From a virus: a DNA stretch of 58,463 nucleotides. Each line of letters starts with the position of its first letter. The first letter of the stretch is position 1. The notes beneath the pieces were generated by a model. It saw only the letters and a list, made by a program, of their open reading frames with translations, was not told the origin of the DNA and made no database searches. Location of the stretch: positions 1-58,463 of the IMG/VR virus record IMGVR_UViG_3300011400_000098. One strand, 5' to 3'. The translations under genes were made by a program, and so were the position numbers. Shown here piece after piece: positions 36,414 through 57,018 of the stretch.

Positions 36414-36815
36414 ATGTCTGACACGGCACAGGTCGAAGCTCCGGCGGAGGGCGCGGCAACCGCGGCGCCTGCTGGAGAAAACGGGCAGGCTGCGCCCGAG
36501 GCTGCAGCTACTGAGAAGGAGAAGCGCCCGCAGGCCGGGATGTATGTGAGTACGCCTGAGCCGCTGAAGTCTCGTATCGAGCAGGAGGCGGCTGCGGCTG
36601 GCGTCGCGCCTCGCGTGTTCGTGCGTGACTTCCTCGCTAAGACGTGGGGCCTCACTCTGGAGCCCGCTCGCACGCGCAGCACCTACGCCACGCCGGAGCT
36701 GAAGGCGGAAGCGCAGAAGGCGAAGCGCCTGGAGCGCCAGGACCTCATCAAGAAGCTGCTCTCCGCTCACCGCGAGGCGCAGAAGGAGGGGAAGCCCGTC
36801 GTCATCGAGGGGTAG
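36414..36815 (+). CDS. Putative ribbon-helix-helix regulator with basic 'YAT' tail
   Basis: This is the only plus-strand gene between 14.1 and 43.8 kb, with its own promoter and intrinsic terminator. The first ~45 residues are an Ala/Glu-rich disordered arm. Residues ~48-85 look like ribbon-helix-helix (MYVSTPEPLKSRIEQEAAAAG, RVFVRDFLAKTWG). The tail carries RSTYATPELKAEAQKAKR and LIKKLLSAHREAQ, shared with the 34822 and 43127 genes. Such an isolated autonomous cassette is typical of a regulator. GAGAGG precedes the ATG. Confidence 0.75.
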   Translation: MSDTAQVEAPAEGAATAAPAGENGQAAPEAAATEKEKRPQAGMYVSTPEPLKSRIEQEAAAAGVAPRVFVRDFLAKTWGLTLEPARTRSTYATPELKAEAQKAKRLERQDLIKKLLSAHREAQKEGKPVVIEG

Positions 36816-36846
36816 ACACTCGCAGACAACTGAATAGGTGGCGGAA

Positions 36847-36875
36847 CGCCCTACGTGAAAGCGTAGGGCGTTTTT
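36847..36875 (+). terminator. Intrinsic terminator
   Basis: A perfect 9-bp stem (CGCCCTACG / CGTAGGGCG) with a TGAAAG loop is followed by TTTTTG. It lies 31 bases after the stop of the plus-strand gene and before the 3' end of a minus-strand gene. Confidence 0.92.
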
Positions 36876-36882
36876 GTTTGTG

Positions 36883-37725: not shown

Positions 37726-38149
37726 GGGCTGCTAGCCTTTCTGCACGACGTTGGCGTGTTGCGCGGAGCTTGTCGATGGGCTTGACCAGTTCGCGGATGG
37801 CTGCTACGATCCTGTTCGGGTGTACGTGGTACGGGCCTACAGTACCCCTCGGAGTGTGCAACGCGGCCTGGAGATGTCGGTACTTTTTGGGGGCTGCACG
37901 CCAGCCGTATACGCCCGCGGCGGGGTCATTTGTGACGAAGATACTGACTCCGCGCGACCACGGCAGGGCGAACAGATAGATTGGTGTGTGTCGAGGGTCA
38001 GCAGGGACATAAGGGATGACGATGCCATCGCCTGCTTTTTGTACGTGGTGGACGAGGGAGCTGTCCGGATCGTTGGACAGCTCCTGTACGACTTTGGTGA
38101 ACAGCTCGTCAGTTCTTCGCTTGCTGGTAGCAATTTCGTCTGCGGTCAC
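37691..38149 (-). CDS. Hypothetical protein
   Basis: The 152-residue alpha/beta protein starts at GTG behind AAAGG. It has IYLFALPWSRGVSIFV and a basic helical C-terminus. Not recognised. Confidence 0.65.
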   Translation of the reverse strand: MTADEIATSKRRTDELFTKVVQELSNDPDSSLVHHVQKAGDGIVIPYVPADPRHTPIYLFALPWSRGVSIFVTNDPAAGVYGWRAAPKKYRHLQAALHTPRGTVGPYHVHPNRIVAAIRELVKPIDKLRATRQRRAERLAALDYATNDNDAA

Positions 38150-38185
38150 GGCTACTGGCCTTTCTTGTGAGCTAATCTCACACTT

Positions 38186-38209
38186 GAGCGTACCGAGATG
38201 GGTACGCTC
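38186..38209. other. Intercistronic hairpin with GAGCGTAC arms
   Basis: GAGCGTACC pairs with GGTACGCTC around a 6-base loop. A second hairpin with the same GAGCGTAC arms lies at 38548-38578. Confidence 0.55.
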
Positions 38210-38228
38210 TGGTGTGGTATTAAGAGAA

Positions 38229-38495
38229 CTAGAACAGGTCGATGCCGTCGTCTGTAGACATGAGGCGGAGCGTAGCGTAGGTAGTCCAGTCCGAGCGCGA
38301 GATGATGTAGGACAGGGACATCTCGTGGAACGTAGCAGTGTAGCCCTTGCCGTCGATGATGCGCTGAGCCTCTTTCATCATGGACAGAATGCTATCGTCC
38401 TGGTCGTAGCTGTGGCTCTCGTCTACGATGTAAGAGAAGCCGTCGTGTGCGAGTGTGACCCGAGCGTGGTACAGGGTTCGCGGTTGGCGCGTCAT
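38229..38495 (-). CDS. Hypothetical protein
   Basis: The 88-residue protein with AGGAG six bases before the ATG has a beta-alpha-beta pattern (HARVTLAHDGFSYIV, ILSMMKEAQRIIDG, ATFHEMSLSYII). Possibly nucleic-acid binding, not recognised. Confidence 0.65.
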   Translation of the reverse strand: MTRQPRTLYHARVTLAHDGFSYIVDESHSYDQDDSILSMMKEAQRIIDGKGYTATFHEMSLSYIISRSDWTTYATLRLMSTDDGIDLF

Positions 38496-38547
38496 ATGTG
38501 GCTCCTAGCCTAGCAGTGATTTGTGCGTTGTGCATCTACGCACAGTT

Positions 38548-38578
38548 GAGCGTACGGCCTTTGGGGGTGCGTACGCTC
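38548..38578. other. Intercistronic hairpin with GAGCGTAC arms
   Basis: GAGCGTACG pairs with CGTACGCTC around a 13-base loop, between the 38587 stop and the 38495 start. Confidence 0.55.
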
Positions 38579-38586
38579 TGCTGTAT

Positions 38587-38808
38587 TTAGATGCGCTCGT
38601 CGGCGGTCAGGTCGAGGGCGGCGGGGCAGTCGTCCTCGTACTGCACCTGAATGTCGCCCGCCATGACTTGCGGGACGTACTCGAACGTGAACCCGGCAGG
38701 AGCGTGGATGTTCCGTCGGCAAACCCAGGCGTCTCCGGGCTCGAAGTCTTGCATGGCGAGGACGGCGAACAACTTGCCTGCGAGGAAGAACATTTTCATG
38801 GACAGCAT
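38587..38808 (-). CDS. Hypothetical small protein
   Basis: ATG 38808 has AAAGG about ten bases upstream. The N-terminus is hydrophobic (MKMFFLAGKLFAVLAM) and the rest is acidic and beta-rich. The hydrophobic start might be a signal or anchor, but it is short. Confidence 0.6.
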   Translation of the reverse strand: MLSMKMFFLAGKLFAVLAMQDFEPGDAWVCRRNIHAPAGFTFEYVPQVMAGDIQVQYEDDCPAALDLTADERI

Positions 38809-38833
38809 GGTGGTGTGCCTTTCTTGGGTTGGT

Positions 38834-39691
38834 TTAGCGGCTGCGGTTGTAGCGTCGGCTGGAGCTTGAGCGGTACCTGCGCTCGAACGGGTCTTGGTAG
38901 ATGTAGGTATCGGGGTCGAACGCTGGGGACTTGTCGGGGTCGTTGTACAGTTCGATCTTCTCCTTGAGCCAGGTTTCGGGTTCTTCGAGCATCGGATCAT
39001 ACAAGAAGATGGAGGGGAGGAACAGGTCTTGCGGGTTCGCCCCCAGATGCTCGCGCATCTTCTTCTCGTTGTATGCGTCGGGGTGCCACGCACCAGTCAC
39101 GCCGGGGTTGTCGAGCCTACAGGCGTCGATCCCTACGTGCCTGACCACATCGGGCTCGCTGAGTGAGGCCATGATCGTGGACAGGTTTATGGGGGATGTA
39201 GTGATGTCCCAACTGATGATTGACCCATCGCGGCGGTAGCTGCCCAGGTTCACGTAGGGGGTGATCAGTACTTGGCGCTTCTTGCTCATCATGATCGCGA
39301 ACGCGGCCAGAACTGCACCACGCTTGACGAGTTGCGCTTCGCTGATACCGCCGGATGAAGTCACGCCCACCCAGATTCGCAGAGGAGCCTTGTCGCTCAT
39401 GTCAGGTAGGAGGTTCCACATGCAGTCGGGCTGGCCCGCGAGGAACGTGGGTACGTCGGGGAAGGCACCTGCTACGTCATGCTCCCATGTGAGAGAGGGG
39501 ACTTCGACGGCCTGCTCGAAGCTCTCCAGGAACTTGTCAGCGAGCTTGGCGTTCTTGTCGTTGCCATCCTCTAGGTCCCGCAGACCTTGCAGGGTCTTGT
39601 CGCGGGACCAGCCAGAGGACTGATCGTCGTTGTTGCGGAACCACTTAGCGAATTCGCGTGGGGAGCTGAAGTGCTTGCTTGTGAATGTCAT
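38834..39691 (-). CDS. VWA-like protein (DUF7192-type), partner of the MoxR ATPase
   Basis: ATG 39691 overlaps the ATPase stop (ATGA) with GGAGG upstream. The 285-residue protein has RIWVGVTSSGGISEAQLVKRGAVLAAFAIMM and later VNLG and PDVVRHVGID, matching phage VWA-like proteins with a degenerate metal site (VTSSG in place of DxSxS). AAA+ plus VWA pairs act as chaperones that remodel or load partners. Confidence 0.7.
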   Translation of the reverse strand: MTFTSKHFSSPREFAKWFRNNDDQSSGWSRDKTLQGLRDLEDGNDKNAKLADKFLESFEQAVEVPSLTWEHDVAGAFPDVPTFLAGQPDCMWNLLPDMSDKAPLRIWVGVTSSGGISEAQLVKRGAVLAAFAIMMSKKRQVLITPYVNLGSYRRDGSIISWDITTSPINLSTIMASLSEPDVVRHVGIDACRLDNPGVTGAWHPDAYNEKKMREHLGANPQDLFLPSIFLYDPMLEEPETWLKEKIELYNDPDKSPAFDPDTYIYQDPFERRYRSSSSRRYNRSR

Positions 39692-41157
39692 CGTGTGCCT
39701 CCGAAGTCGATGTGCTTCGGGTCTTGAGGCAGAGTGGGCGTGGCGAGCGTGGTGGGTGCGATTGATGTGGCGGAGTCTGGCTTGTAGTTGCGGAGCCAAG
39801 TGTCGATCTGACGCAGCGGCTCGGGCCACGATCCGTCGCGCTCGCGGAACTTACCAAAGATCGCCTCGACCACCAGAGCTGGGCGCACGCCCCGGCTGAG
39901 CAGGGCTCCGCCTCGGCTGGTCGCGCGTGGGCTAATCACGATCTTCAGCTCTTTGGTGTTGCACGCGGCCCTACAGGCCTGGACTAGGCGCGTCCAATCA
40001 GGCACCTTGCCGAACGCCATCTCCAGATCGTTGTCGTAGCCCCAGGACAGAGTAAAGAACCGGTCGAGGGTCGCGTCGTCGAGCTTGTTCCGCCCCATGT
40101 AGTTGGCGTCACCGCCGAACCCCCAGGTGTTGGCCGCTGCGATGATGTAGCAGTCCTTGTGGCGGGGGACGAGCTTGTCAGGGAAGTCGTGGAACCCGTT
40201 GGCAGTTGCAGCGTTGATTTCGAGGAGAGCGTTGGCAGAGGAGCCATCCATCTCGTCGAGCAGGATCACGCCACCGTTCTCGTAGATGTGGCGGAACCCA
40301 GTCCCTACATAGTCGCCCTTGGCGTCCATGTAACCTGAGATTTGGAACGGAGTAGCGACTGCACCCCTCGCGCGGAAGTGGGTGGTCTTCGCTTTCTCCT
40401 CCCCGAACAACGCCACAGCGACGAGGAACGCGCCGGTCGTCTTACCAGAACCCGCCGGCCCGGCCAGATAGCCGTTTCTATCTGGGGCGTCCAGGTTCAT
40501 CATCAGCTCGATCAGATCGAGTTGGCGGAAGTGCTTCAGACCCTTGAGTTGGGTCGTGGTGCCATCTGCGGCCTTGACGGTGAGCGTCTTGCCTGTGTCG
40601 GCTTGCTTTTCGAGCTGCTCGATGCGGAGCTTGGCACCAGCGAACTGGGACTTCAGCTCGTCGTACTGCTTGATGATCTGGTCGGTTCTGGCGCGCTCTT
40701 GCGCGACGTTGGTTTTGGCGTCTTGCGCGGTCGTTAGGGAGGCCAGCGCGGCGTCCTCAACGTCATTGAGGCGACCCGCGATAGCAGTGAGCACTTCCTC
40801 GCCCAGGTTGCTGTTGGTAGCGCCGTTGGCCGAGGGCAGTTCGACGGGCTTCGTCTCGTGGGAGTGCAGAAGCTCTTGGCTGGGCGTGGCGGTCGTGGTC
40901 TTGGGCAGATCAACGCCCTTGTCGTGCGCGACGTGCGCGTTTGCGATGAGCTGCTCGCGCTCGCTTTGCGGCTTCCAGACAGAGCGCCCGCTCCACTCGT
41001 TCTGGATGTTCCAGGCGTCGTGGCGGTCGTGCGCGGTGGGGTCGTCCCTGTGGTAGATCGTGGCTTTGTGCCACTGAACGATGGTAGGCGAACCAATGGT
41101 CGTGTGACCGTGGTTCAACTGCCCATCGTCCTTGAGCAGATACTTCGTGCTGGTCAT
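39688..41157 (-). CDS. MoxR-type AAA+ ATPase
   Basis: In the 489-residue protein, residues ~140-190 form a coiled coil. Then comes the AAA+ core: YLAGPAGSGKTT (Walker A), GVILLDEMDGS (Walker B), IIAAANTWG (sensor 1) and LDDATLDRFFTL (arginine finger region). This fits the CbbQ/NorQ/MoxR group. Its VWA-like partner is the next gene. The transcript begins with a 9-bp hairpin. Confidence 0.88.
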   Translation of the reverse strand: MTSTKYLLKDDGQLNHGHTTIGSPTIVQWHKATIYHRDDPTAHDRHDAWNIQNEWSGRSVWKPQSEREQLIANAHVAHDKGVDLPKTTTATPSQELLHSHETKPVELPSANGATNSNLGEEVLTAIAGRLNDVEDAALASLTTAQDAKTNVAQERARTDQIIKQYDELKSQFAGAKLRIEQLEKQADTGKTLTVKAADGTTTQLKGLKHFRQLDLIELMMNLDAPDRNGYLAGPAGSGKTTGAFLVAVALFGEEKAKTTHFRARGAVATPFQISGYMDAKGDYVGTGFRHIYENGGVILLDEMDGSSANALLEINAATANGFHDFPDKLVPRHKDCYIIAAANTWGFGGDANYMGRNKLDDATLDRFFTLSWGYDNDLEMAFGKVPDWTRLVQACRAACNTKELKIVISPRATSRGGALLSRGVRPALVVEAIFGKFRERDGSWPEPLRQIDTWLRNYKPDSATSIAPTTLATPTLPQDPKHIDFGGTR

Positions 41158-41214
41158 TGCTTTGGCTGCTAGCCCCTCCGTTGAGTTCAGATCAGTGATT
41201 GCGCGCTAGTGTGG

Positions 41215-41237
41215 GGTGGAGGGCAGAACCCTCCACC
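41215..41237. other. Hairpin at the 5' end of the MoxR transcript
   Basis: A perfect 9-bp stem (GGTGGAGGG / CCCTCCACC, 5-base loop) begins within about two bases of the predicted transcript start of the promoter at 41241-41269. It could protect the 5' end or hide a GGAGG sequence. Confidence 0.6.
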
Positions 41238-41240
41238 TAT

Positions 41241-41269
41241 AGTATACACGCAGAACGTGCGGAAGTCAA
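41241..41269 (-). promoter_or_regulatory. Sigma70-type promoter for the MoxR/VWA operon
   Basis: The minus strand reads TTGACT (41269-41264), 17-bp spacer, TATACT (41246-41241). Confidence 0.82.
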
Positions 41270-41305
41270 TAGGCAGAACCAGGACTGGCACATACTGCTA
41301 AGTAT

Positions 41306-41506
41306 TCAGTCCTGCGTCTGGTCGGCGACGTACGCGCTGAGCAGGCGGCCGTTGATCGTGATCTGGCTCGCGCCCATCGCGTCGCCTTCCATGAGCATCC
41401 GCGCTTTCAGCTTCGTGGCCTGGCGCAGACGTGAGGGTCGCGTGCCGCGTGCGTGGACTGGTAGGCGGTGCGGTGGTGGGTTCGGCGGGCAAGTGACTGT
41501 GTACAT
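41306..41506 (-). CDS. Small basic hypothetical protein
   Basis: ATG 41506 lies behind AAAGGAG. The 66-residue product has a Pro/Arg-rich N-terminal half and a C-terminal strand-turn segment (SQITINGRLLSAYVA). Not recognised. Confidence 0.6.
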   Translation of the reverse strand: MYTVTCPPNPPPHRLPVHARGTRPSRLRQATKLKARMLMEGDAMGASQITINGRLLSAYVADQTQD

Positions 41507-41538
41507 GGCATGGCAGCTCCTTTCTCTGTAATGGTAGC

Positions 41539-41560
41539 GACTTTTACAGTTGAAAAAGTG
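41539..41560. promoter_or_regulatory. 22-bp dyad site e
   Basis: The halves GACTTTTAC and GAAAAAGTG flank AGTT. It lies about 32 bases upstream of ATG 41506 on the minus strand. Confidence 0.7.
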
Positions 41561-41736
41561 GTTTTTTGTAGTCTGGGGCGCGGGCCATTGGATTACAAAC
41601 CTACATGGCACTACCTCCCTACCTACTGAAGCATACAATTGTACATACCCGTCCTGTATGTTTGTATCCTCCGTCATCATCTCAAGGGTATGGAGTAGGT
41701 ATGTAATCAAGTGCAGGAAAATTCAGCGCGGTCGAC

Positions 41737-41758
41737 GACTTTTGCATTTGTAAATGTC
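41737..41758. promoter_or_regulatory. 22-bp dyad site f
   Basis: The halves GACTTTTGC and GTAAATGTC flank ATTT. It is 177 bp from site e in the same gene-free region. Confidence 0.68.
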
Positions 41759-41778
41759 CCGAAAATCGCTTCAGAGGT

Positions 41779-41790
41779 CGGCGGGAGCTC
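41779..41790 (-). repeat. GGAGCTCCCGCC element (orphan copy)
   Basis: One of four exact 12-bp copies (also 42529-42540, 43007-43018, 43451-43462). At 43007 and 43451 a start codon follows at once; here none does. Confidence 0.6.
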
Positions 41791-41839
41791 CACTGTGAAG
41801 CCCCCGCGCTCCCTGAATAGCTCGGCCCGCCCCCTAGCG

Positions 41840-42085
41840 TCAGACGGCCTCGCCTGGAGCCTGTGCACCGCGCGTCCCGGCGGCCTCGATGACTGTGAAA
41901 TCGGGATGCCGCGGGACAGACACCCCCAATCGCGCGCACTCGAGCTGCAGGGCCTCGGCGGAAGTCAGAGACCAGGCGCGAACGCGGGAGATCGCGAACT
42001 GCCAGGAACACGGGCGCGTCATCTGCAGACCCGACTCCGAAACGACGGTCCAACGACCGGCGGCGACTTCAACCACGGTGTACAT
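41840..42085 (-). CDS. Hypothetical protein
   Basis: The 81-residue protein starts at ATG 42085 behind GAAAGG. It reads as a small beta protein (YTVVEVAAGRWTVV) followed by a helix. Not recognised. Confidence 0.6.
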   Translation of the reverse strand: MYTVVEVAAGRWTVVSESGLQMTRPCSWQFAISRVRAWSLTSAEALQLECARLGVSVPRHPDFTVIEAAGTRGAQAPGEAV

Positions 42086-42183
42086 TGCAGTAAAACCTTT
42101 CGGGCTCCGTTAGACGCTGGCACCGCGCACCACGAGCAGGTGGAGCCTTGCGCGGCATGGTGGGGCCCGCAGGCCCCGTAGTG

Positions 42184-42504
42184 TCAGACCTCCTCGTCGC
42201 CCGCGCCGGCGATCTGCGCCTCGACGTAGCTCAGGAAGCTCAGGTGCCCGTCGTGGTCTGTGCGCCACACGCCATACAACAGACCTACGAGCTGCGGGTC
42301 GATTCCTGCGAAGCACGCGCCCTTGAGCTGCTCGTCGACGGTGGACTTCACAGAGCGGAGCTTCTCCGCGCCGCACCAGGGGCAGAACCGCGGGCGCACT
42401 AGCTGCGTGGGCAGCTCGACGCGCAGAGTGATGAGTTGGCTGCAAGCGTCGCAGAGCCAAAGCATGTCGCCGGTCAGATGAGGATTCAGGTTCAGGTCAG
42501 GCAT
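42184..42504 (-). CDS. Zinc-ribbon protein (CDAC...CPWC)
   Basis: CDAC near residue 19 and CPWCGAEKL near residue 41 are a clear zinc ribbon, followed by a helical region and acidic end. AAGGG precedes the ATG. Possibly binds nucleic acid. Confidence 0.7.
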   Translation of the reverse strand: MPDLNLNPHLTGDMLWLCDACSQLITLRVELPTQLVRPRFCPWCGAEKLRSVKSTVDEQLKGACFAGIDPQLVGLLYGVWRTDHDGHLSFLSYVEAQIAGAGDEEV

Positions 42505-42528
42505 GGATGCTATCCCTTCTCAGATGTA

Positions 42529-42540
42529 GGCGGGAGCTCC
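42529..42540 (-). repeat. GGAGCTCCCGCC element
   Basis: The copy lies 24 bases before ATG 42504 and overlaps a GC hairpin (GGCGGG / CCCGCC, with an alternative GGGGG-AAA-CCCCC). Confidence 0.55.
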
Positions 42541-42567
42541 CTCAGGGGGAAACCCCCGCCGGCGGTC

Positions 42568-42798
42568 TCAGTAGATCTCGTACGGGTGGTAGTAGACCAG
42601 GTAGGGCGGGTTCAGATCGTAGTCGGCGGGGAGGCGCACCCACAGCTCGTTGCGCCCGTAGTAGGGGTAGTCCAGATCGGCGCGGCGGATGGCGCAGCCG
42701 TCCTCGTCCAGGCGAATGTCAGTGATGGTGAACATGACATCCAGTTCCGGGTCGTGGCAGATGCAGCCCACCACGTAGTCGTCGCTCAGAGATTGCAT
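42568..42798 (-). CDS. Hypothetical acidic protein
   Basis: The 76-residue, Asp/Tyr-rich protein has AAGGA before the ATG. It has CIC near the N-terminus and ends in PPYLVYYHPYEIY. Not recognised. Confidence 0.62.
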   Translation of the reverse strand: MQSLSDDYVVGCICHDPELDVMFTITDIRLDEDGCAIRRADLDYPYYGRNELWVRLPADYDLNPPYLVYYHPYEIY

Positions 42799-42817
42799 GG
42801 CTCAGGTTCCTTTCAGG

Positions 42818-43006
42818 CTAGAAGTAGCGGCTACTCTCGGAGTACAGTTCGCGCTCGATCTTGGTATGCATCTCCGGGTTGTACATCTGCACGAGGCGGA
42901 GGGCGGTGCGCGCGTCCTTGGGTGTGCAGTACCAGTTAACGCGGGTCCACTCGGTATCGGCGGCGCGCTTCTTGAACACGACATAGGTGTAGCGCATGGC
43001 AGACAT
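42818..43006 (-). CDS. Hypothetical small protein
   Basis: The 62-residue protein starts with RYTYVVFKKRAADTEW and then a helical region. Its ATG directly follows the GGAGCTCCCGCC element, which supplies the ribosome site. Confidence 0.65.
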   Translation of the reverse strand: MSAMRYTYVVFKKRAADTEWTRVNWYCTPKDARTALRLVQMYNPEMHTKIERELYSESSRYF

Positions 43007-43018
43007 GGCGGGAGCTCC
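43007..43018 (-). repeat. GGAGCTCCCGCC ribosome-site element
   Basis: Ends exactly at the ATG of the 42818-43006 gene; AAGGAG is spaced about eight bases from the start. Confidence 0.7.
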
Positions 43019-43093
43019 TTCAGGTCTCGTTGAATGCCGGCGACAGAGCCGGTGTGGCGCGCACCACGTACAGGTGAGACATCGCGCGCCATG

Positions 43094-43117
43094 TGTGGGG
43101 AGCTTCCGCCCCCCACA
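43094..43117. other. Intercistronic hairpin
   Basis: TGTGGGG pairs with CCCCACA around a 10-base interior just after the 43127 gene stop. A short T-run (ATTTT) lies on the plus side only. Confidence 0.45.
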
Positions 43118-43126
43118 GATTTTCGC

Positions 43127-43534
43127 TTAGGCGATAGCGGCGCGCTCCTCCTCCGTGAGCTTCGTCGCGTCCCCACCAGCGGCGTGGAGCTTCAGAAGAG
43201 CGCGGATCTTGGCGTTGCGCGAGGCGGTTTGCGCTTTCTTGGCTTGAGCGGCCTCCTCTTTGGTCGCGTACTTGGCGCGGGGCTTGGCAGACGCGACCTC
43301 GATCCCGAAGTGGGAGCAGACGATTTGCTTGAGTAGGCCACCACGCGACGCGCCGGACGTGGCGCACTCGGCATCAATCGCGGCGAGTAGCTCGGGCGTC
43401 ATGGTCACGGCGATGTAGCGCAGATCGGCGGACTTTTCGGTCTCAGACACGGCGGGAGCTCCCTCATTCTTTCCATCAACGGCGGTCATCTCGGCAATCA
43501 TGGCGGCTTCGGTGTTGGTCATCTCGGCGGTCAT
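43127..43534 (-). CDS. Ribbon-helix-helix protein with basic 'YAT' tail
   Basis: The core (YIAVTMTPELLAAIDAECA, SRGGLLKQIVCSHFG) reads as ribbon-helix-helix. The tail has KYATKEEAAQAKKAQTASRNAKIRALLKLH, shared with the 36414 and 34822 genes. Two starts have good ribosome sites: ATG 43534 (AAGGA) and GTG 43450, which directly follows the 12-bp element at 43451. Both a 135- and a 107-residue form are possible. It is the first gene of the leftward arm, a natural place for a regulator. Confidence 0.78.
   Translation of the reverse strand: MTAEMTNTEAAMIAEMTAVDGKNEGAPAVSETEKSADLRYIAVTMTPELLAAIDAECATSGASRGGLLKQIVCSHFGIEVASAKPRAKYATKEEAAQAKKAQTASRNAKIRALLKLHAAGGDATKLTEEERAAIA
43451..43462 (-). repeat. 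GGAGCTCCCGCC element preceding GTG 43450
   Basis: Identical to the copy at 43007, again immediately followed by a start codon, here internal to the longer reading frame. Confidence 0.65.
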
Positions 43535-43693
43535 CTTGGTTTTTCCTTGTAGGTTCGAGCTTTGTCAGATTTTGGTTCCCGCTCGCCCTACATCTATATA
43601 CTACTCCCAATCTGGGGCCGGCACAACGGGGCCAACCTCTCCTGTCGGGAGCACCGTAAAATAACGTAAGGCTGCAAACCAGCCTGCACACAC

Positions 43694-43722
43694 TTGACAA
43701 GCCAACAGACATCGCGTATACT
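43694..43722 (+). promoter_or_regulatory. Rightward late-arm promoter
   Basis: TTGACA (43694-43699), 17-bp spacer, TATACT (43717-43722). Transcription should start near 43729, about 80 bases before the first structural-arm gene. No extended -10. Confidence 0.9.
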
Positions 43723-43786
43723 AACCACAATAGGGCCTCTCCACCCAACCCGCCCACCACCCTGCAGCGCGCCCTGACACACCCCT

Positions 43787-43815
43787 ATTATATCATAACC
43801 CCACGCCTATGTCAA
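43787..43815 (-). promoter_or_regulatory. Leftward arm promoter, overlapping the rightward leader
   Basis: The minus strand reads TTGACA (43815-43810), 17-bp spacer, TGA-TATAAT (43792-43787), a perfect promoter with extended -10. Its -35 box includes bases of the 43809 start codon, and its transcript (from ~43780) runs back through the rightward promoter. Confidence 0.9.
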
Positions 43816-44318
43816 CTTCACCGCCGACATTTACAGACGAAAAAGTCATCTCACCCAACGACGCCATTGGCTTCTTAATCCAAGCCAAAGGCAACGCCAG
43901 CCTAGCAGCTGTCTACGCCTCCAAAGAACTAAACTCCCCCACGCCAATCAGCGAAGCCCAACTAATCGCAGCAATCACCAACTCAGACGACCCCCAAGCT
44001 GTAGCACGCAACCTCTCCAGCCTAACCGCCCAACTACGCATTCTACTCGTACTCAACACCGTCGAAGCCTTTCGTATCACCCACACAGCCTACCTACAAA
44101 TGATCCCCCACCTATCAGCAAAAGAAACAGCCAACACCTATACCAAACTCCTTGACGCACTAACCGTCCTGGCTACCCCTCCCCCACCTGCCCAAACCAA
44201 CTCCCCCTCACCCTCATCGCAACTCACCGCAGAAACCCTTCGCGCACTCATGCCTCCCGAAGTCCAAGCTGCCCTCGACCAACTCACCCCACCAACAAGC
44301 CCTACCCCCACACCATGA
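43809..44318 (+). CDS. Putative terminase small subunit-like protein
   Basis: This 169-residue helical protein is the first gene of the packaging/structural arm. It has an acidic-polar N-terminus, helices (SEAQLIAAITNSDDPQAVARNLSSL, QLRILLVLNTVEAF) and a Pro-rich tail. TerS identity is inferred from position; no HTH is certain. There is no ribosome site before ATG 43809. The strand is extremely C-rich. Confidence 0.55.
   Translation: MSTSPPTFTDEKVISPNDAIGFLIQAKGNASLAAVYASKELNSPTPISEAQLIAAITNSDDPQAVARNLSSLTAQLRILLVLNTVEAFRITHTAYLQMIPHLSAKETANTYTKLLDALTVLATPPPPAQTNSPSPSSQLTAETLRALMPPEVQAALDQLTPPTSPTPTP
43826..43847. promoter_or_regulatory. 22-bp dyad site g (divergent control region)
   Basis: The halves GACATTTAC and GAAAAAGTC flank AGAC. 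It lies 11 bp beyond the -35 box of the leftward promoter and inside the first codons of the 43809 gene, an operator-like position. Confidence 0.7.
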
Positions 44319-44746
44319 TAGCCCCCGCCCCCTACGTCGCTAACGCCCCCGCAGTCAGGGCAGCCACGATAGAAGACTACCCCGCCATAGTCACCCTAGT
44401 ACGCAGTACGCGCCTTTTTGGTTTCGTAAACAGAACTGTTATTAGACAATCTATCGAAAAAAGCGAACTCAACATCGTAGACCACAAGCAAATCATAGCA
44501 GGCTTCATACGCTACCACAGGCGCAAAGACAATAAACACACCATCTACGATCTGTACGTCGTCCCGCAATACCGGCGTCGAGGCTACGCTACTGCTCTGT
44601 TCGATTCAATACCTACCCCCAAGCAGTTACGTTGTCCTAACTACCTCCCCTACGCAGCGGCCCACGCCTTCTACACACGCCTAGCACCCACCCACCACAT
44701 AGCTGCCTACGACATGACGCTGTACGTATGGGACACCCCGACCTAA
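44315..44746 (+). CDS. GNAT acetyltransferase
   Basis: The 143-residue protein has the acetyl-CoA loop YVVPQYRRRGYATALF and an N-terminal VRAATIEDYPAIVTL, the standard GNAT arrangement. It overlaps its neighbours (ATGA upstream). The substrate is unknown. Confidence 0.8.
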   Translation: MIAPAPYVANAPAVRAATIEDYPAIVTLVRSTRLFGFVNRTVIRQSIEKSELNIVDHKQIIAGFIRYHRRKDNKHTIYDLYVVPQYRRRGYATALFDSIPTPKQLRCPNYLPYAAAHAFYTRLAPTHHIAAYDMTLYVWDTPT

Positions 44747-45438
44747 TATTCTGCTTCAACAACTCTCCCGCTCTCACCACTCTAGCACTCAACTACGGGT
44801 TCCTCTACGGCCACCGCACATCACAAGCTCCCCTGCCATCTCCGCCCTTCCCGCCTCCAGCGTTCCTCGACCTAGACCATCGTACGCCCGACAAACACTT
44901 CCCACGACACCTCGCTCTCGCAGCCCAACACCAACCCAAATACGCTATCGCAGGCGACGCCACTACCCCCGACGAGCTGAACAAAGCCCTGCAACGTGCT
45001 GAACAGCTCGCCCTGGTTGCACCCCACACCTACATCATCATCGTCCCAAAGACAGTAGACCTCATCAACAACACACCAACCGAATTCCCCTATATGACAG
45101 GCTATAGCCTCCCTACAGAATTCGGCGCTACCCTTGCGCCGCCTGCGGCCTATGGGGCGGCTGTGCAACCCCCACGAAAAATTCACATTCTAGGCGGCTC
45201 TCCGAAAGCCCAAATCCAGGCCGCATTGCTGATAGACCCTACTCTGGATAATATCGCAAGCGTGGATACCAACGCACACGTCAAGGCAGCCCAGGTAGGA
45301 ACGTATTGGGACGCGTTTAGTAACAAATGGAAACGAATGCAGCGCAATACAAGTCGCGTCCAACAAGACCACCTTATCCCAGCGTTCTGTAGGTCGAGTA
45401 GGTCTATCCAACAAGCCTGGAAGATATGGTCACCTTAA
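44728..45438 (+). CDS. DUF6610-like protein, possible TIM-barrel/DpdA-like fold
   Basis: In the 236-residue protein the segments FLDLDHRTPDKHF, TYIIIVPKTVDLI, GYSLPTEFGATL, KIHILGGSPKAQI and NIASVDTNAH occur in order. This matches a phage family I recall as DUF6610 and recalls transglycosylase-type TIM barrels (HLLGGSP motif) such as DpdA. If so it could touch DNA base modification, but this is inference. Confidence 0.55.
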   Translation: MGHPDLIFCFNNSPALTTLALNYGFLYGHRTSQAPLPSPPFPPPAFLDLDHRTPDKHFPRHLALAAQHQPKYAIAGDATTPDELNKALQRAEQLALVAPHTYIIIVPKTVDLINNTPTEFPYMTGYSLPTEFGATLAPPAAYGAAVQPPRKIHILGGSPKAQIQAALLIDPTLDNIASVDTNAHVKAAQVGTYWDAFSNKWKRMQRNTSRVQQDHLIPAFCRSSRSIQQAWKIWSP

Positions 45439-46994
45439 CCCCCGACAACGCAGCCCTTATTATTAATAAGTGGCTGCAAAGCTACGACCCTAATCGCGTC
45501 CCCTCATACGCAGAGAACAACCCTGTCGATTGGGGCGAGAAGAACTTTTACATCCCGTCTGACGCAGACAAGCCCACACTCATTAAGTTTCTGCCCCATC
45601 AAAAGACAATCATGCGATTGTTCTTCGACCCCACTATTGCACAAAAACTCGCTAACGCCCCCAGTTTCCAAACTCTAGTTTACTCAACTATTAAGAAGTC
45701 TGGCAAGACGGCTATTGCAGCTCTCATCGCCAGATGGATCACCGAGACGTGGGGTTCGCACAGCGAAGTCTTTAGTCTCGCCAACGACCTAGAGCAAGCC
45801 AGAGGTCGTATCTACCAAGCTGCCATCAACTCAGTAGAACTCGATCCTCGATACCATCGAGCTGACCGTGGTATCGCGCAATTGTGGCGTATCATCGAAC
45901 GCCAGGCCATGCACCTGCCATCGCACAGCATCCTAAAAGCGGTCTCGTCTGACTATAAGGGTGAAGCAGGGTCTAATCCTAGTGCTACGTTCTGGTCGGA
46001 GCTATGGGGCTACGAGACTGAAGCGAGCTTGAGGCTGTGGGAAGAACTCACGCCCGTCCCCACCCGCCCACGCTCGATTAGGTACGTAGAAACCTACGCA
46101 GGCTACGAAGGCGAATCCTCGATCCTGAACGACCTCGAAGATCGTATCAAGAAAGAAGGCGTGCGTCTTACCCTCGATCAGCTATACGCCCTCGGCTTCA
46201 CACAAGACGATTGGCCCTTCCCACCAGACGAGCCGTTGCCATTCTACGTCCACGCCCCCACGCGCACGTTCGCGTACTGGGATATGGGCGTTGAAGCGCG
46301 TAGAATGCCGTGGCAGACGCCACAATACTATCTCACGCAACAAGGCGAGCTACGCCCCTCCGCGTTTGATAGGCTGCACCTAAACATCAGAGTCTCCAAC
46401 GCTGATGAATTCGTACCCGACGAATGGTGGTCTAGGCTCGCAATCCCCTCCCTCGCCAACCCTCCAGGCCCCAACACGCCGCTCGTTGTTGGGGCTGATG
46501 CTAGCGTTACCGGCGACTGCACAGCGTTGGTCGCTGTTTCGCGCCACCCCGATCACCCCGATCAAGTGGCACAACGTCTATGCCGTGTCTGGCAACCTAC
46601 TCCTGGGCACCCCCTCGACTACTCACAAACTATCGAGCCTACACTACGCGAGTGGGCCGCCCAATACAACATTGTACAAATCGCGTACGATGAATTCCAG
46701 CTCCACGATTTGATGTCGCGGCTACGCAACGACGCGGTCGCATGGACGCGCAAGTTTGGTCAGACGCAAGATCGCCTCGTTGCAGACAAAGCTCTGTACG
46801 ACATGATCCGCGACCAGCGTATCCATCACACAGGCGACCCCACTCTGGCAGAGCACTTGCTTAACTGCGCAGCCAAAGTCCCACACGACGACAACACGCG
46901 CCTACGCCTAGTCAAGAAGTCGCGTCGATCTAAGATTGACGCTGCTGTAGCCCTATCAATGGCAGCCTCTGAGTGTTTGAGGTTGAACCTCTAA
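45426..46994 (+). CDS. terL: Terminase large subunit
   Basis: The 522-residue protein has the ATPase Walker A variant STIKKSGKTA near residue 86 and a Walker B-like strand ATFWSELWGYE. The RNase H-type nuclease shows VVGADASVTGD, IAYDEFQ and KIDAAVALSMA as its acidic residues. It powers DNA packaging and cuts the concatemer. Portal lies 4.2 kb downstream, an unusually long gap. Confidence 0.93.
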   Translation: MVTLTPDNAALIINKWLQSYDPNRVPSYAENNPVDWGEKNFYIPSDADKPTLIKFLPHQKTIMRLFFDPTIAQKLANAPSFQTLVYSTIKKSGKTAIAALIARWITETWGSHSEVFSLANDLEQARGRIYQAAINSVELDPRYHRADRGIAQLWRIIERQAMHLPSHSILKAVSSDYKGEAGSNPSATFWSELWGYETEASLRLWEELTPVPTRPRSIRYVETYAGYEGESSILNDLEDRIKKEGVRLTLDQLYALGFTQDDWPFPPDEPLPFYVHAPTRTFAYWDMGVEARRMPWQTPQYYLTQQGELRPSAFDRLHLNIRVSNADEFVPDEWWSRLAIPSLANPPGPNTPLVVGADASVTGDCTALVAVSRHPDHPDQVAQRLCRVWQPTPGHPLDYSQTIEPTLREWAAQYNIVQIAYDEFQLHDLMSRLRNDAVAWTRKFGQTQDRLVADKALYDMIRDQRIHHTGDPTLAEHLLNCAAKVPHDDNTRLRLVKKSRRSKIDAAVALSMAASECLRLNL

Positions 46995-47082
46995 TGACAG
47001 CAAGCGACGACCATAGCACACTAAACCCACGCGGACCCCGTTGCTCGGCCTGGACTAACGGGCCAAGCCCAAGAGGGCGGCT

Positions 47083-47343
47083 GTGCGGTTGAGCCAAGCA
47101 ACTCCCCCCATCGCTAGGGGCGAAGAATACAGGAATCGCTTGCAGAAGTTCCTCACGCAAGGAACTCTGTATATACAGTCAACGAATCATGTGATAATCC
47201 GACGTCTGGTTCTAGAAGGTAATCAAAACTCTTTCGCTTACGGGATTTGCTGTTTTAGATGTAGCACAATCTCATGGACGCCTGATGATGTCAACGGAAG
47301 ATATTGCCCCAGTTGCAGAATCTACCACGGCGGTATCCAGTAA
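47083..47343 (+). CDS. Zinc-ribbon protein, copy 1 of a tandem pair
   Basis: GTG start behind GAGGG. The C-terminal region YGICCFRCSTISWTPDDVN...CPSC is clearly related to the next gene (YGIGCFSCGKISWNINDVN...CTIC), as is the KFLxxG...VIIRR strand. The pair looks like a local duplication that has diverged. Confidence 0.65.
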   Translation: MRLSQATPPIARGEEYRNRLQKFLTQGTLYIQSTNHVIIRRLVLEGNQNSFAYGICCFRCSTISWTPDDVNGRYCPSCRIYHGGIQ

Positions 47344-47551
47344 GTTCCTAGAATGGGGCGATATTATATATCAAAACCAAGACTACGCCATTATAAGGCG
47401 CTATTATATCAGCAACCTCTCGCACCCCTTCGCGCATCACTCAATGTACACCCTAGGCACACACGAGTACGGGATTGGTTGCTTCTCCTGCGGAAAAATA
47501 TCGTGGAACATCAACGACGTGAACGCCAGAAGTTGCACGATCTGTGAGTGA
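47285..47551 (+). CDS. Zinc-ribbon protein, copy 2 of a tandem pair
   Basis: Paralogue of the preceding gene, overlapping it by 59 bases in another frame. ATG 47285 or 47288. Carries CFSC and CTIC with the shared DVNxR linker. Confidence 0.65.
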   Translation: MMSTEDIAPVAESTTAVSSKFLEWGDIIYQNQDYAIIRRYYISNLSHPFAHHSMYTLGTHEYGIGCFSCGKISWNINDVNARSCTICE

Positions 47552-47669
47552 CTGGAACTGGTTTTCGTTCGTGCTAGGAGGCGTTGTAGGTCTGTCTGCA
47601 ATGTGGCTAGCTACAGTGCTTTCTCAAGCGCAACACACAGAAGAAACCGACCGTCGTTTTAGACCATGA
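47544..47669 (+). CDS. Tiny membrane protein (41 residues), holin-like candidate
   Basis: GTG 47544 overlaps the preceding gene and the stop overlaps the next start (ATGA). One hydrophobic segment (FVLGGVVGLSAMWLATVL) is followed by a charged tail (EETDRRFRP). It lies directly before a peptidase gene, as small holin or pinholin genes often do. Confidence 0.5.
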   Translation: MSDWNWFSFVLGGVVGLSAMWLATVLSQAQHTEETDRRFRP

Positions 47670-48487
47670 CTAGGCTCGACGTTCCTTATATATCCCAACT
47701 CATCAACGGATCAGGCGGCAACAACTGTGGCCCGGCCTGTCTGGCAATGACGCTGGCTGATAGGGGTGTGATACCCCCCACCCAAAGCGCCATGCTGCAA
47801 GTAGCCGACATCGCCCGCGACGGATCACTCAACAACGTAGGTCTAACGGGTGGCTACGTCAACTTCCAGCAGCTTGCAATGGCGGCCGGTTGGTACGGAC
47901 AGTCGGTTACTTGGATTTACTCTTGGGAATCTGTTGACCGCTCTATTCAAAACGAAGAAGCCGTAATAATCTTACTGGATAACATACCTCTCCAGCCACG
48001 TCAGTATCCAGTCTCCCCCTCATGGAACGCACATCATTTTATCTTACTTACTTCAACCAACATAGATAATAATCGCTATTCCAGTGACCCTCTCTCTTAC
48101 TACATCCAGGCTCCGTACTTCTATACCGAAGCCTCCACCAGACAGGGCGTAGCGAACCTCGGTGCTGTGCAGGCGATGGCGCTACAGCCTTTAGATCGTC
48201 CGCCCCCACCTCAGCCAGACCCGGAGATTATCATGTTGATGGAAGATTGGCAAATCAGACTGTGGGTGCTGGCTGACTTATATAGTTGGGCGGGAATCCC
48301 ATACAACCCTGACGATCCTACATCACAAGGTTGGGTCAATGCGCTCAGGTCTGGACATTATCTCGGCAGACCTCGTACGACTGGTCGCTCGTACGGGGAG
48401 GGCGATCAAGCTGGAGTTTGGGCCGAATTCGATTACGGCGTACTGTGGGCGCGAGCCTCAGACGGCGCTACAAGTTGGACAGGATAA
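47666..48487 (+). CDS. C39/papain-like cysteine peptidase domain protein
   Basis: The 273-residue protein starts LDVPYISQL and has the catalytic Cys context NNCGPACLAM and a His segment (WNAHHFILLTS) about 100 residues on, the C39-like layout. The C-terminal part has an unassigned helical domain. It could be a lysis amidase/peptidase or a virion peptidoglycan enzyme. Small membrane protein genes lie on both sides. Confidence 0.75.
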   Translation: MTRLDVPYISQLINGSGGNNCGPACLAMTLADRGVIPPTQSAMLQVADIARDGSLNNVGLTGGYVNFQQLAMAAGWYGQSVTWIYSWESVDRSIQNEEAVIILLDNIPLQPRQYPVSPSWNAHHFILLTSTNIDNNRYSSDPLSYYIQAPYFYTEASTRQGVANLGAVQAMALQPLDRPPPPQPDPEIIMLMEDWQIRLWVLADLYSWAGIPYNPDDPTSQGWVNALRSGHYLGRPRTTGRSYGEGDQAGVWAEFDYGVLWARASDGATSWTG

Positions 48488-48494
48488 TAATCAA

Positions 48495-48692
48495 GTGACA
48501 CTAACTGCAGAGCGTATGCCTGATGCTCCCACGCCTGTGCGTCCTGGGCCAGACAAGCCCGAAGTCGTAGAGCCGCGCAAGGCTCCTGACGACACCAAGA
48601 AGCCCACAAAGACACCTGAAGTCGTAGAGCCGCCTAAAGAACCTGCCGTCGCCCCCGAACCTCAGTATGTGCCTAGGCGTCAGCCAAGGTAA
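48495..48692 (+). CDS. Pro/Lys/Glu-rich low-complexity protein
   Basis: GTG 48495 with AGGA upstream is the preferred start. The ~65-residue product contains two copies of a PEVVEPxK repeat. It is probably extended and unstructured. A start at 48339 would overlap the peptidase gene by 149 bases. Confidence 0.5.
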   Translation: MTLTAERMPDAPTPVRPGPDKPEVVEPRKAPDDTKKPTKTPEVVEPPKEPAVAPEPQYVPRRQPR

Positions 48693-48694
48693 AT

Positions 48695-50032
48695 GTGCGA
48701 CCCTGGCATATCGCAGGCTTCACTATCGGTGTGCTCGTCGTATTACTGCTGTTCCGATATTGTGAGCAGGCGGCGTATGGTCAACCGCTTCCTAGCCCGA
48801 TTACGCTATGCCACCTAAATCCAGATAACACCTACACAGAGCTTACTTTTGCTAATCCGAACTCAGCAGCAGCTCAAATACACATACAAAACCCAAACGA
48901 TCTAGTACCAGCGCCAGCAGGAGGCTGCCCATCAACACGCCAAACGAGAACACCAACGCCCCTCCCGCAGACACCGACACCGACGCAGACACCGACGTTA
49001 ACCGCATCCGCCACCTTTTCACCTACGGCGGTCGCATCATCGTCCCCGACCGCGGCACCGTTACCTTCACCATCACCGTCGATAGCTCCACTCCCGGCTA
49101 CCCCTTCGCCGTCCACGACGCCGACAATAATCTCCTCGGTGACGGCGTTATCACCGACCTCGGTTTCAACATCGAATCCTTCCACATCAACGCCCAACCC
49201 GACGTCCCCGCCAAACCAGAACCAGAACAACCAGCCAGCCAGTAACGACGGCACACAAAATCTGCTCGTCTGTGAAAGCTTGCCTGGCGGACTACGTGAA
49301 ATACGGATCAAAGAGAGAGAATGGCCGCAGTACCGCAGCCGAAGCACACAAGGGCCTTGTCGTACGCCAACTCCCTCACCTACCGCCTCAGCGACGCCCT
49401 CCTCGACAGCGCCATCGCCAGCTTCGAGCGCGACGAGCGAAGCGTCCCCAACGACGATAATCACGATCCAAGCAGACCCAGACCCTTCCAGCACAGCCAC
49501 GAACACACCCACTACGCCAGAATTAACACCACCCACAAACATTCCCACTGGCACGGAGACAACAGAACCACCAGAAACCATCACGCCGGCCCCGGCCCAA
49601 GAAACCGCTCCATTACCCGTACCAGTACCAGTACCGACTCCGCTGCTTAGCCCTACACAAACTCCTGTCATAGTCACATTGCCGCCATTGCTGGTTCCAG
49701 CCATACAAACCGTGATTGTACGAGAGATCGAAACGCAGCTCGTCGAGGTCACAGTTGTCGTACCGGCCGCAGCCACGCCAACGCCAACGCCTAGCATCAC
49801 CCCTACTTCGCTTCCAAATCCGAGCGGGCCTGTGGTTAATGGAACACGTACTAGTGTGGTCGGAACTCAACGTCCAACGGACACTAACGTTCTGCCTGAC
49901 AGTAATCGTTCTAATCTTAGTCTTTTTCTTAATTATGGCCCAGCCGATCCCATCATCCGGGCCTTAGTTCTCGCTTCCAGCGTAGGGATGGGTGTGACAC
50001 TTGGCTTCATCGTCGCCAGGCTCAGGCCCTAA
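48695..50032 (+). CDS. Large Thr/Pro/Ser-rich protein with membrane segments at both ends
   Basis: The 445-residue protein has an N-terminal membrane segment (AGFTIGVLVVLLLF) and another at the C-terminus (LVLASSVGMGVTLGFIVA). Between them are long TPTP/TATPS tracts, two Cys-bounded modules (LCHLNPDNTYTEL..., VCESLPGGLREI...) and a PVPVPVPTP repeat. Such stalks are common in bacterial surface proteins, especially Chloroflexota. It may be host-derived and span the envelope. Confidence 0.75.
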   Translation: MRPWHIAGFTIGVLVVLLLFRYCEQAAYGQPLPSPITLCHLNPDNTYTELTFANPNSAAAQIHIQNPNDLVPAPAGGCPSTRQTRTPTPLPQTPTPTQTPTLTASATFSPTAVASSSPTAAPLPSPSPSIAPLPATPSPSTTPTIISSVTALSPTSVSTSNPSTSTPNPTSPPNQNQNNQPASNDGTQNLLVCESLPGGLREIRIKEREWPQYRSRSTQGPCRTPTPSPTASATPSSTAPSPASSATSEASPTTIITIQADPDPSSTATNTPTTPELTPPTNIPTGTETTEPPETITPAPAQETAPLPVPVPVPTPLLSPTQTPVIVTLPPLLVPAIQTVIVREIETQLVEVTVVVPAAATPTPTPSITPTSLPNPSGPVVNGTRTSVVGTQRPTDTNVLPDSNRSNLSLFLNYGPADPIIRALVLASSVGMGVTLGFIVARLRP

Positions 50033-50048
50033 TGTCCCGCCAGCTCAG

Positions 50049-50336
50049 ATGGCGACGGCGGTGTTTGTCTTCAGACAAATCATCTGCTTGCTCTTTATCG
50101 TCGGCTGGCTGGTCATGTTCTGTTTCGATACCTTCTTCGATACAGGCGAGGCATTACTTCCATTTTGGTTTAACTGTATTGGTATGGGTGTGCTAGCGTT
50201 CTCGCTCGGAGTGAACGTTGAAAGCCTCATGTCATTTAGAGGCATCAGCATTGTCCCCACTACCGCAGAGCAGCCTCAACCACAATACACTACACCGCGA
50301 CCGCAGCCCTATGTGCCCCCGGATGCCAAAAGATGA
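50049..50336 (+). CDS. Two-pass membrane protein, holin-like candidate
   Basis: ATG 50049 gives 95 residues with two hydrophobic segments (IICLLFIVGWLVMFCF, FNCIGMGVLAFSLGV) and a Pro-rich tail. A TTG at 50001 would add 16 residues. It has holin-like topology next to another two-pass gene. Confidence 0.6.
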   Translation: MATAVFVFRQIICLLFIVGWLVMFCFDTFFDTGEALLPFWFNCIGMGVLAFSLGVNVESLMSFRGISIVPTTAEQPQPQYTTPRPQPYVPPDAKR

Positions 50337-50488
50337 GCGTATTTGATATCGTCCTCATCATCCTCGCGTGCGTGTTCTTCTTCATTGCTGCCGTTAGCCC
50401 CCACCTACGTAACAACCCGCAGCCTTCGATCAACTGGCTTGCGTGGGGACTTTTCTGCTGGGCGCTCAGCGTGCTACCTTGGTTCTAA
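50333..50488 (+). CDS. Tiny two-segment membrane protein (51 residues), holin-like candidate
   Basis: ATG 50333 overlaps the previous stop (ATGA). Two hydrophobic stretches (IVLIILACVFFFIAAV, WLAWGLFCWALSVLPWF) are joined by a short polar loop. The clean overlap and composition make it a plausible gene. Confidence 0.6.
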   Translation: MSVFDIVLIILACVFFFIAAVSPHLRNNPQPSINWLAWGLFCWALSVLPWF

Positions 50489-50498
50489 GCTCAGCAAC

Positions 50499-51215
50499 GT
50501 GACGACTATTACGCAGGAAAAAGTCGGGGAGAGCCCGTTGCTTGGCCCGGATTGCGTTACGGCCTTGCCACCACGGCGTGCGCCCGCTCCGAAATTGTTG
50601 GACTTGTTCTGTGGCGAGGGCGGGGCTGGACACGGCTACTCATTGGTAGGGTTCGATGTGACGGGGGTGGATATCAGGGTACAGGAGCGATACCCGCACA
50701 GGTTCGTTTGCGATGATGCGCTAGAGCATCTTCGGCGTCATTGGCGCGAGTTTGACGTGATCCATGCGTCTCCGCCGTGTAGAGCGCATTCCCTTATGAA
50801 ATATGTGACACAAGAAGCCTACTTTGACTTCATTCCCGTGTTGCGAGACATTTTGTTACAAATCAGAAAGCCTTATATTATCGAAAACGTCGAAACGGCC
50901 CCTTTGCGCGACCCAATATTGCTATGCGGTGGAATGTTCGGCCTCAGGACGTATCGCCATCGTATCTTCGAGACGAATATGGTCATTCCTAGGCTCAGAC
51001 ACCACACACACGAACATCAAACGGCTCCGGTTGGGCGCTCTGCGTGTGCGAATGAGTATCTGAACCTTGTAGGGCACTTCCCCGACGTAGAGCTGGCTAG
51101 ACGTGTAATGTCGATGCCTTGGGCGTCCAGAGATGGGATCGCTGATGCTGTACCGCCTGCATACACACAGTATCTCGGTGAGTACGCTATGGCGTTCGTG
51201 GAGGCTTTCCGATGA
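50499..51215 (+). CDS. Cytosine-C5-type DNA methyltransferase, compact
   Basis: The motifs are LLDLFCGEGGAGHGY (I, SAM binding), HASPPCRAHS (IV, catalytic Cys), IIENVETA (VI), FGLRTYRHRIFE (VIII) and PPAYTQYLGEY (X-like). At ~240 residues it almost lacks a target recognition domain. GTG 50499 or TTG 50538 (GGGGAGAG upstream) may be the start; dyad site h overlaps this region. Confidence 0.85.
   Translation: MTTITQEKVGESPLLGPDCVTALPPRRAPAPKLLDLFCGEGGAGHGYSLVGFDVTGVDIRVQERYPHRFVCDDALEHLRRHWREFDVIHASPPCRAHSLMKYVTQEAYFDFIPVLRDILLQIRKPYIIENVETAPLRDPILLCGGMFGLRTYRHRIFETNMVIPRLRHHTHEHQTAPVGRSACANEYLNLVGHFPDVELARRVMSMPWASRDGIADAVPPAYTQYLGEYAMAFVEAFR
50504..50525. promoter_or_regulatory. 22-bp dyad site h (methyltransferase start)
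   Basis: The halves GACTATTAC and GAAAAAGTC flank GCAG. It lies between the 50333 gene and the likely translated core of the methyltransferase, where GC skew flips back to G-rich. Confidence 0.65.
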
Positions 51216-56451: not shown

Positions 56452-57018
56452 GTGGCGTACGAACGCGAATGGTACGAAGGGCTTGCAGGATTGCGGCCCT
56501 ATAACGAGAGGGCACTCTGGGGCGTGTTCGCACACCTCGGTAGACCTGGCTCGTACCTCGACGCTGGGTGCGGTGACGGTTGGCTGGTGTACACGGCTCG
56601 CACGGCGGGTGTCCCGGTCTCTGTTGGTGTGGAAGTCTCTCCTGATGCTGCGCAAGTAGCGCCGGCTGGAACAGAAATCATCACGCACGATCTAGGCCAA
56701 ACTCTAAATCTAGGGCGCAAGTTCGATTTGGTGACGTCGTGGGAAGTAGGAGAGCATCTTGAGCAATCCTGCGCTGATGAGTTTGTGGGTAACCTGGTTC
56801 GCCACACTGGGCGTTATCTGGTTTTTACTGCAGCCGTTATAGGCCAAGGCGGCTATCATCACGTCAATTGTCAACCCGTAGAGTATTGGCGTCTCAAGCT
56901 AATATCTGGCGGATTGAAATACTTAGAGCAAGAAACGGAAGCCCTGCGATTGACGTGGCGATGGACAGTTGGCCCGCTGGTGTGGCTCCCTAACAACATT
57001 CAGGTGTTCGGTGTATGA
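56452..57018 (+). CDS. SAM-dependent methyltransferase
   Basis: The 188-residue class I methyltransferase has motif I YLDAGCGDGWL and DLVTSWEVGEHLE. GTG start behind GAGG. Coupled by ATGA to the glycosyltransferase, so it probably methylates a sugar or the glycan-bearing virion protein rather than DNA. Confidence 0.82.
   Translation: MAYEREWYEGLAGLRPYNERALWGVFAHLGRPGSYLDAGCGDGWLVYTARTAGVPVSVGVEVSPDAAQVAPAGTEIITHDLGQTLNLGRKFDLVTSWEVGEHLEQSCADEFVGNLVRHTGRYLVFTAAVIGQGGYHHVNCQPVEYWRLKLISGGLKYLEQETEALRLTWRWTVGPLVWLPNNIQVFGV

Follow-up and report, generated by a model that had tools for sequence, protein, structure and literature searches.

Between about 43.5 and 50.4 kb of the virus genome analysed here, the plus strand turns from G-rich to strongly C-rich and back again, and we put at roughly 0.5 the probability that the stretch from 43.8 to ~47.5 kb carries the footprint of strand-specific mutation, with ~43.5 kb as a replication terminus or genome end. 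The C-rich block of inverted skew is itself a matter of observation: the 60-base counts given in an earlier note on this DNA are exact (26 G and 10 C in 38881-38940, 5 G and 34 C in 44161-44220, 23 G and 11 C in 50641-50700), and the cumulative GC skew, the check for which that note asked, has its peak at 43458 and the following minimum at 50434. A likelihood analysis of G versus C places changepoints at 43459, 45124 and 50437, the outer two delimiting the block (43459-50437), and none of 1000 shuffles of 1-kb blocks gave a drop as large as the 815 of the C-excess segment (43578-50434), the largest being 682. Measured over 1.5 kb, the skew of -0.45 exceeds in size that of every other genome or locus in a comparison of 20 from phages: a relative with 75% identical terminase large subunit reaches -0.35 and all others stay at or below 0.28 in size.

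The phage genome and its relatives

The window is the whole virus record of 58,463 bases, which is very probably a complete circular map because the frame of the last ORF (57015-58463) runs on into the first (1-1251) and the two halves, both with glycosyltransferase-like matches, form a single 893-codon ORF (21039-23717) in a relative, IMGVR_UViG_3300027743_000032. The virus is a tailed phage, in which the packaging, portal, capsid and tail genes point rightward and extend from 43.8 kb past the record end to 14.1 kb, and replication and early genes run leftward from 43.8 down to 14.1 kb. No close DNA relative was found among 50,697 phage records, and matches of the terminase large subunit (TerL) to isolated phages lie below 30% identity; among bacterial assemblies TerL relatives were found only in Chloroflexota metagenome-assembled genomes (seven loci, 37-39% identity), which makes a Chloroflexota bacterium the probable host. 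The relative named above (59,750 bp) shares the gene order, with 75% identity in TerL, 73% in the portal, 94% in a capsid-region protein and 68% in the DNA polymerase. Searches of the genome found no tRNAs and no structured RNAs at gathering thresholds, and G-quadruplex motifs are few, with four starts on the minus strand in or beside the block.

Two components of the block

The flip in skew adjoins an intergenic region (43535-43808) with two overlapping sigma-70-like promoters placed face to face, a rightward one on the plus strand (43694-43722, consensus match 11/12) and a leftward one on the minus strand (43815-43787, 12/12 with TG), both being consensus matches only. The label of a divergent promoter region, given earlier to the left switch, is therefore somewhat inaccurate: the arrangement of these promoters is facing and overlapping, not back-to-back. 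A family of leftward sigma-70-like promoters (TTGACA, 17 nt, TATA-T), 63-88% identical to its reference copy, is found at 11936-11975, 26804-26843, 30991-31030, 35989-36028 and 43780-43819. At the left edge of the block lies a ribbon-helix-helix (RHH)-like gene on the minus strand (43127-43534; PF01402 at 18.4 bits, below cut-off). On the right, the plus-strand operon opens with a gene placed like a terminase small subunit (43809-44318) and named by position only, whose product has no family match and whose 43% identical homolog adjoins TerL in the relative. There follow on the same strand a GNAT acetyltransferase-like gene (44315-44746; PF13508 and PF00583 above cut-off), a DUF6610 protein (44728-45438; PF20314, E 8e-37), TerL (45426-46994; phrog_9, E 2e-39, and PF20441), two overlapping small Cys-rich, zinc-ribbon-like ORFs with homologs in the relative (47083-47551, namely 47083-47343 and 47285-47551), a C39-like peptidase (47666-48487; PF13529, E 9e-9) and a Pro/Thr/Ser-rich protein (48695-50032) whose homolog in the relative has the same feature. 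The two Cys-rich ORFs resemble tandemly duplicated copies of a zinc-ribbon protein, and both are present in the relative. The C39-like gene has a further relative at 65-66% identity, which lies in an unrelated neighbourhood without this block.

The first component of the block is a strand bias at fourfold-degenerate sites, with a core from 43809 to 47550 on the plus strand. Fourfold skew is -0.57 at 43.6-45.6 kb and -0.26 at 45.6-47.6 kb, then +0.05, and in 700-bp steps from the left edge it runs -0.82, -0.39, -0.46, -0.23, -0.18, -0.31, -0.16 and +0.20; the bias thus peaks at the left edge and declines across 4-5 kb, having come down to about -0.2 at 4.2 kb. Fourfold sites in the first 700 bp are 5% G, 51% C, 31% A and 13% T, and those of the first gene (43809-44318) are 5% G and 50% C. 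The trend of G versus C with distance is significant both in this phage, at p=2.5e-5, and in its relative, at p=1.9e-3, is weak once the first gene is left out (p=0.026), and is accompanied by a weaker gradient of T and A (p=0.009 with the first gene, 0.48 without). Set against the other late genes, the plus strand of the block is depleted in G and T and enriched in C and A at fourfold and twofold sites, A making up 0.67 of A/G at twofold sites (0.41 in the other late genes) and C 0.79 of C/T (0.62). This paired shift of G to A and T to C, with its gradient, is the pattern by which single-strand deamination would be recognised, just as the sharp change of sign at synonymous sites is that of a replication-terminus-type skew.

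The second component is of another kind. In the gene at 48695-50032, whose protein is 18% P, 16% T and 11% S, codon positions 1 and 2 carry the skew, the third-position skew being -0.04, and at 48.7-50.0 kb the skew is what a protein rich in Pro, Thr and Ser ordinarily produces. The two edges which the earlier note had drawn are therefore not alike: the left one is sharp and lies in synonymous sites, and the right one is mostly a coding effect, as the fourfold skew stays close to 0 from 47.6 kb onward and third positions in 48695-50032 are near neutral, so that the edge near the palindromic site called dyad h (see below) mostly marks the end of this protein and its small membrane-protein neighbours. 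On present evidence the turn at ~50.4 kb should not be read as an origin; a search for origin-like iterons at 43.4-43.9, 46.95-47.7 and 50.25-50.65 kb found only short two-copy repeats.

An account of the whole block from amino-acid composition alone, in which proteins rich in Pro, Thr, Ser and Ala impose codons starting with C or A, holds for 48695-50032 and contributes part of the effect in 43809-44318, where the position-2 skew is -0.75. As a cause for 43.8-47.5 kb it is refuted, since the strongest bias there sits at fourfold third positions, which are protein-neutral, and we regard composition as a quite improbable explanation of the block as a whole.

A horizontally transferred module, the other origin that the earlier note had raised, with breakpoints at its dyads g and h, would account for the strand-specific tetranucleotides that make 43.5 kb the most deviant place in the genome (z 3.8-4.05, the maximum) and for changepoints lying 367 and 67 bp from those dyads. 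Once tetranucleotides are symmetrised between strands, however, z falls to 1.6-1.9, higher values occur elsewhere in the genome, and the block is not singled out. Gene order and divergence in the 75% relative match the rest of the genome, the skew being present there as well and the region being neither absent nor different; moreover, the skew fades gradually with no breakpoint at its end, and six further dyads lack a comparable change. What sets the block apart is asymmetry between strands, not foreign composition, and a transferred module is most improbable.

Skew by position in homologous genes

The 75% relative also has the block, with a drop of 909 and fourfold skews of -0.70 in the gene like the terminase small subunit (TerS) and -0.61 in TerL. 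At the fourfold codons shared by the two TerL genes identity is 0.38, compared with 0.29 expected from composition alone; these sites are therefore near saturation, and the common bias must have been kept up, not left over from a recent event. The two genomes differ in where the skew flips, at 43459 in this phage and at 6567 in the relative, 2.2 kb to the left of its TerS-like gene. The leftward RHH-like gene has a plus-strand fourfold skew of +0.37 here and -0.52 in the relative (Fisher p=2.3e-6), a comparison made over the aligned parts only, the relative's ORF being only 32% identical over about 100 residues. The neighbouring leftward CxxC gene differs in the same direction (+0.18 here, -0.33 in the relative; p=0.07 at fourfold sites, p=0.03 at third positions), and genes further left and right have the same sign in both phages or no significant difference. 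Independence of the skew from gene orientation and identity is thus strong for one gene and weak for a second. Because homologous genes in the same orientation carry opposite skew in the two phages, the sequences indicate that the skew is set by position, not by gene or by direction of transcription. Such pairs of genomes offer a natural test of position against transcription and protein composition.

The same comparison weighs on transcription itself as the source of the bias, by deamination or repair of the exposed non-template strand. The flip does lie near the junction of the leftward and rightward operons, but the sign is wrong: in phages and bacteria it is usually purines that are in excess on coding strands (Szybalski's observation; PMC3269016), and here both arms next to the flip have C-rich ones. 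Farther along the rightward run, the portal and capsid genes lack such C-rich coding strands, and same-orientation homologs differ in sign; a transcriptional strand bias is accordingly very unlikely.

Selection on the RNA fares somewhat better, though it too is unlikely as the explanation. Here the 5' part of the rightward late transcript would be kept G-poor, C/A-rich and unstructured, for example as a long Rho-loading (rut-like) zone that would shut off the late operon until it is antiterminated or well translated. The bias peaks at the start of the transcript, the RNA of 43809-45438 is predicted to fold at -18.5 kcal/mol per 120 nt compared with about -33 for its antisense or for typical other genes, and C-over-G bubbles occupy 41% of 78-nt windows at 43.6-45.5 kb and 0% in other late genes; as a sequence prediction, the C-rich, G-poor, unstructured RNA of a Rho-utilisation zone is therefore present. 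However, these C-over-G windows end at 45.5 kb while the fourfold bias goes on, and in the relative the plus-strand bias extends 2.2 kb to the left into leftward genes, making their coding strand G-rich, which selection on the late RNA cannot explain because it cannot act there. Such selection could nonetheless add to the skew.

More distant relatives define how far the pattern extends. A cumulative-skew maximum 1-3 kb before TerL is shared by this phage, the 75% relative and a relative with 48% TerL identity; the dip after the flip is 290 in the last of these, 19-112 in three others (43-49% TerL identity), or absent. The strong form of the skew characterises the clade that this phage forms with its 75% relative, since distant relatives have a shallow dip or none. 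The refuting condition set in the earlier note, the same block with unrelated boundaries in all relatives, thus has a mixed outcome: the left boundary is kept in three phages (1-3 kb before TerL), and it is the block that becomes shallow or absent in distant ones. Two further candidates were set aside: a conserved cos-like sequence at the flip, as the intergenic regions of this phage and the relative have no meaningful alignment, and the points at which the relatives' contigs start, as pointers to physical ends, these being too few and too biased.

A possible role of replication or genome ends, and comparison with known systems

Replication polarity, which the earlier note had also offered, survives as the best class of explanation, because neither transcription nor gene content can give opposite skew in same-orientation homologs. 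Loss of G and T with gain of C and A on the plus strand would correspond to C to T and A to G on the minus strand, so the minus strand to the right of ~43.5 kb would have been single-stranded for longer, and the plus strand to the left of it likewise, to a lesser degree. This exposure would be expected if replication forks end at 43.5 kb; alternatively, the linear packaged molecule may end there, where the terminase genes start, with 3' single-stranded tails. The signs of skew either side of 43.5 kb fit both 3' single-stranded tails at a genome end and forks that end, and when the circle is opened at 43.6 kb the late genes run from the left end and the leftward early genes lie at the right end, a common phage layout, which agrees with an end at this point. 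Some results weigh against this interpretation, which is plausible. Eight reference phages (lambda, HK97, T7, phiC31, D29, Muddy, Shambre1 and SteamedHams), whose records start at or near defined ends and which were intended as a positive control for an end signal, have no such signal at their ends, and ends alone are therefore insufficient. The left arm of leftward early genes (33137-43534, minus strand), in turn, is G-rich on the plus strand at fourfold sites (skew +0.24 to +0.44 in most 2-kb bins) and is no clean mirror of the block, being GC-rich and favouring G at twofold purine sites (A among A/G 0.29); a comparable opposite bias on both sides out to an origin was not found, the fourfold skew being near zero over much of the genome. 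These left-arm genes, with a GC content of about 0.60, are mostly poorly conserved in the relative and form a separate compositional region.

The dyads g and h by which the block had been said to be bounded do lie near its turns, but they belong to a larger set. A matrix built from the seven first-listed sites has eight 22-bp matches in the genome, compared with 0.25 in shuffles, at 5247-5268, 16836-16857, 26016-26037, 35408-35429, 41539-41560, 41737-41758, 43826-43847 (dyad g, GACATTTACAGACGAAAAAGTC) and 50504-50525 (dyad h, GACTATTACGCAGGAAAAAGTC, just inside the start of a probable methyltransferase, GTG 50499). They are imperfect palindromes with a consensus of roughly GACTTTTAC-N4-G-N-AAAAGTC, most of them lying at a gene start or immediately ahead of one; the site at 5247 is new and directly precedes the longest gene of the tail region. 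The relative has five weaker dyad-like sites, of which two correspond in position, preceding the homologs of the longest tail-region gene and of the primase. The dyads are probably operators for a phage DNA-binding protein; six of the eight are away from skew turns, and as a class they therefore do not bound skew blocks. A candidate binder is encoded at 18593-19294, where a ParB-like N-terminal domain is followed by a helix-turn-helix region.

A different role, in which dyads would be fork-stop or DNA-cutting sites and the one nearest the terminase would set the flip of strand exposure, is in our judgement quite improbable. In this phage the dyad at 43826 lies 367 bp from the flip, and in the relative the flip is 117 bp from a dyad-like site at 6684, the equivalent intergenic region there having no dyad-like site. 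With two genomes only, and with the relative's sites scoring lower, this proximity may be coincidence. If the role were real, the position of the flip would follow the dyad nearest the terminase. Separately, the interval 41158-42183, about 1 kb long, lacks any convincing gene and contains two dyads as well as a leftward promoter-like site; its equivalent in the relative (about 6177-7304 in that record) is where the relative's skew flips.

To return to a terminus or genome end at ~43.5 kb, if strand composition does record single-strandedness, one could predict from sequence alone where replication stops and where packaging ends lie in uncultured phages. Several known systems bear on this. The sharp cumulative-skew maximum resembles that at the terminus of bacterial chromosomes, where leading and lagging strands differ in GC skew (reviewed in PMC3269016); unlike in those chromosomes, the minimum and maximum here are separated by only 7 kb, amino-acid composition accounts for part of the minimum and the fourfold skew is near 0 widely. 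Siphophages of the L5/D29 type are not closely related to this phage and D29 has no such skew at its ends, but their gene order and orientations are similar to those obtained when the circle is opened at 43.6 kb. For phage ICP1, sequencing coverage puts the pac site near a predicted rolling-circle origin (PMC7145576), and although that case has measured coverage and PhageTerm ends and this phage is known from sequence alone, both suggest a tie between a packaging site and a special point of replication. A parallel in the type of substitution comes from organelles: strand-displacement replication of mitochondrial DNA leaves the same pair of transitions with a gradient by position (PMC8565317), and adenine-to-guanine gradients have been used in modelling chloroplast replication (PMC2695485). 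Those systems have known replication modes and origins, and they differ from the present phage, whose zone is only 4-5 kb long and whose other arm is no clean mirror; what they have in common with it is a paired G to A and T to C shift, on one strand and at synonymous sites, that fades from a fixed point.
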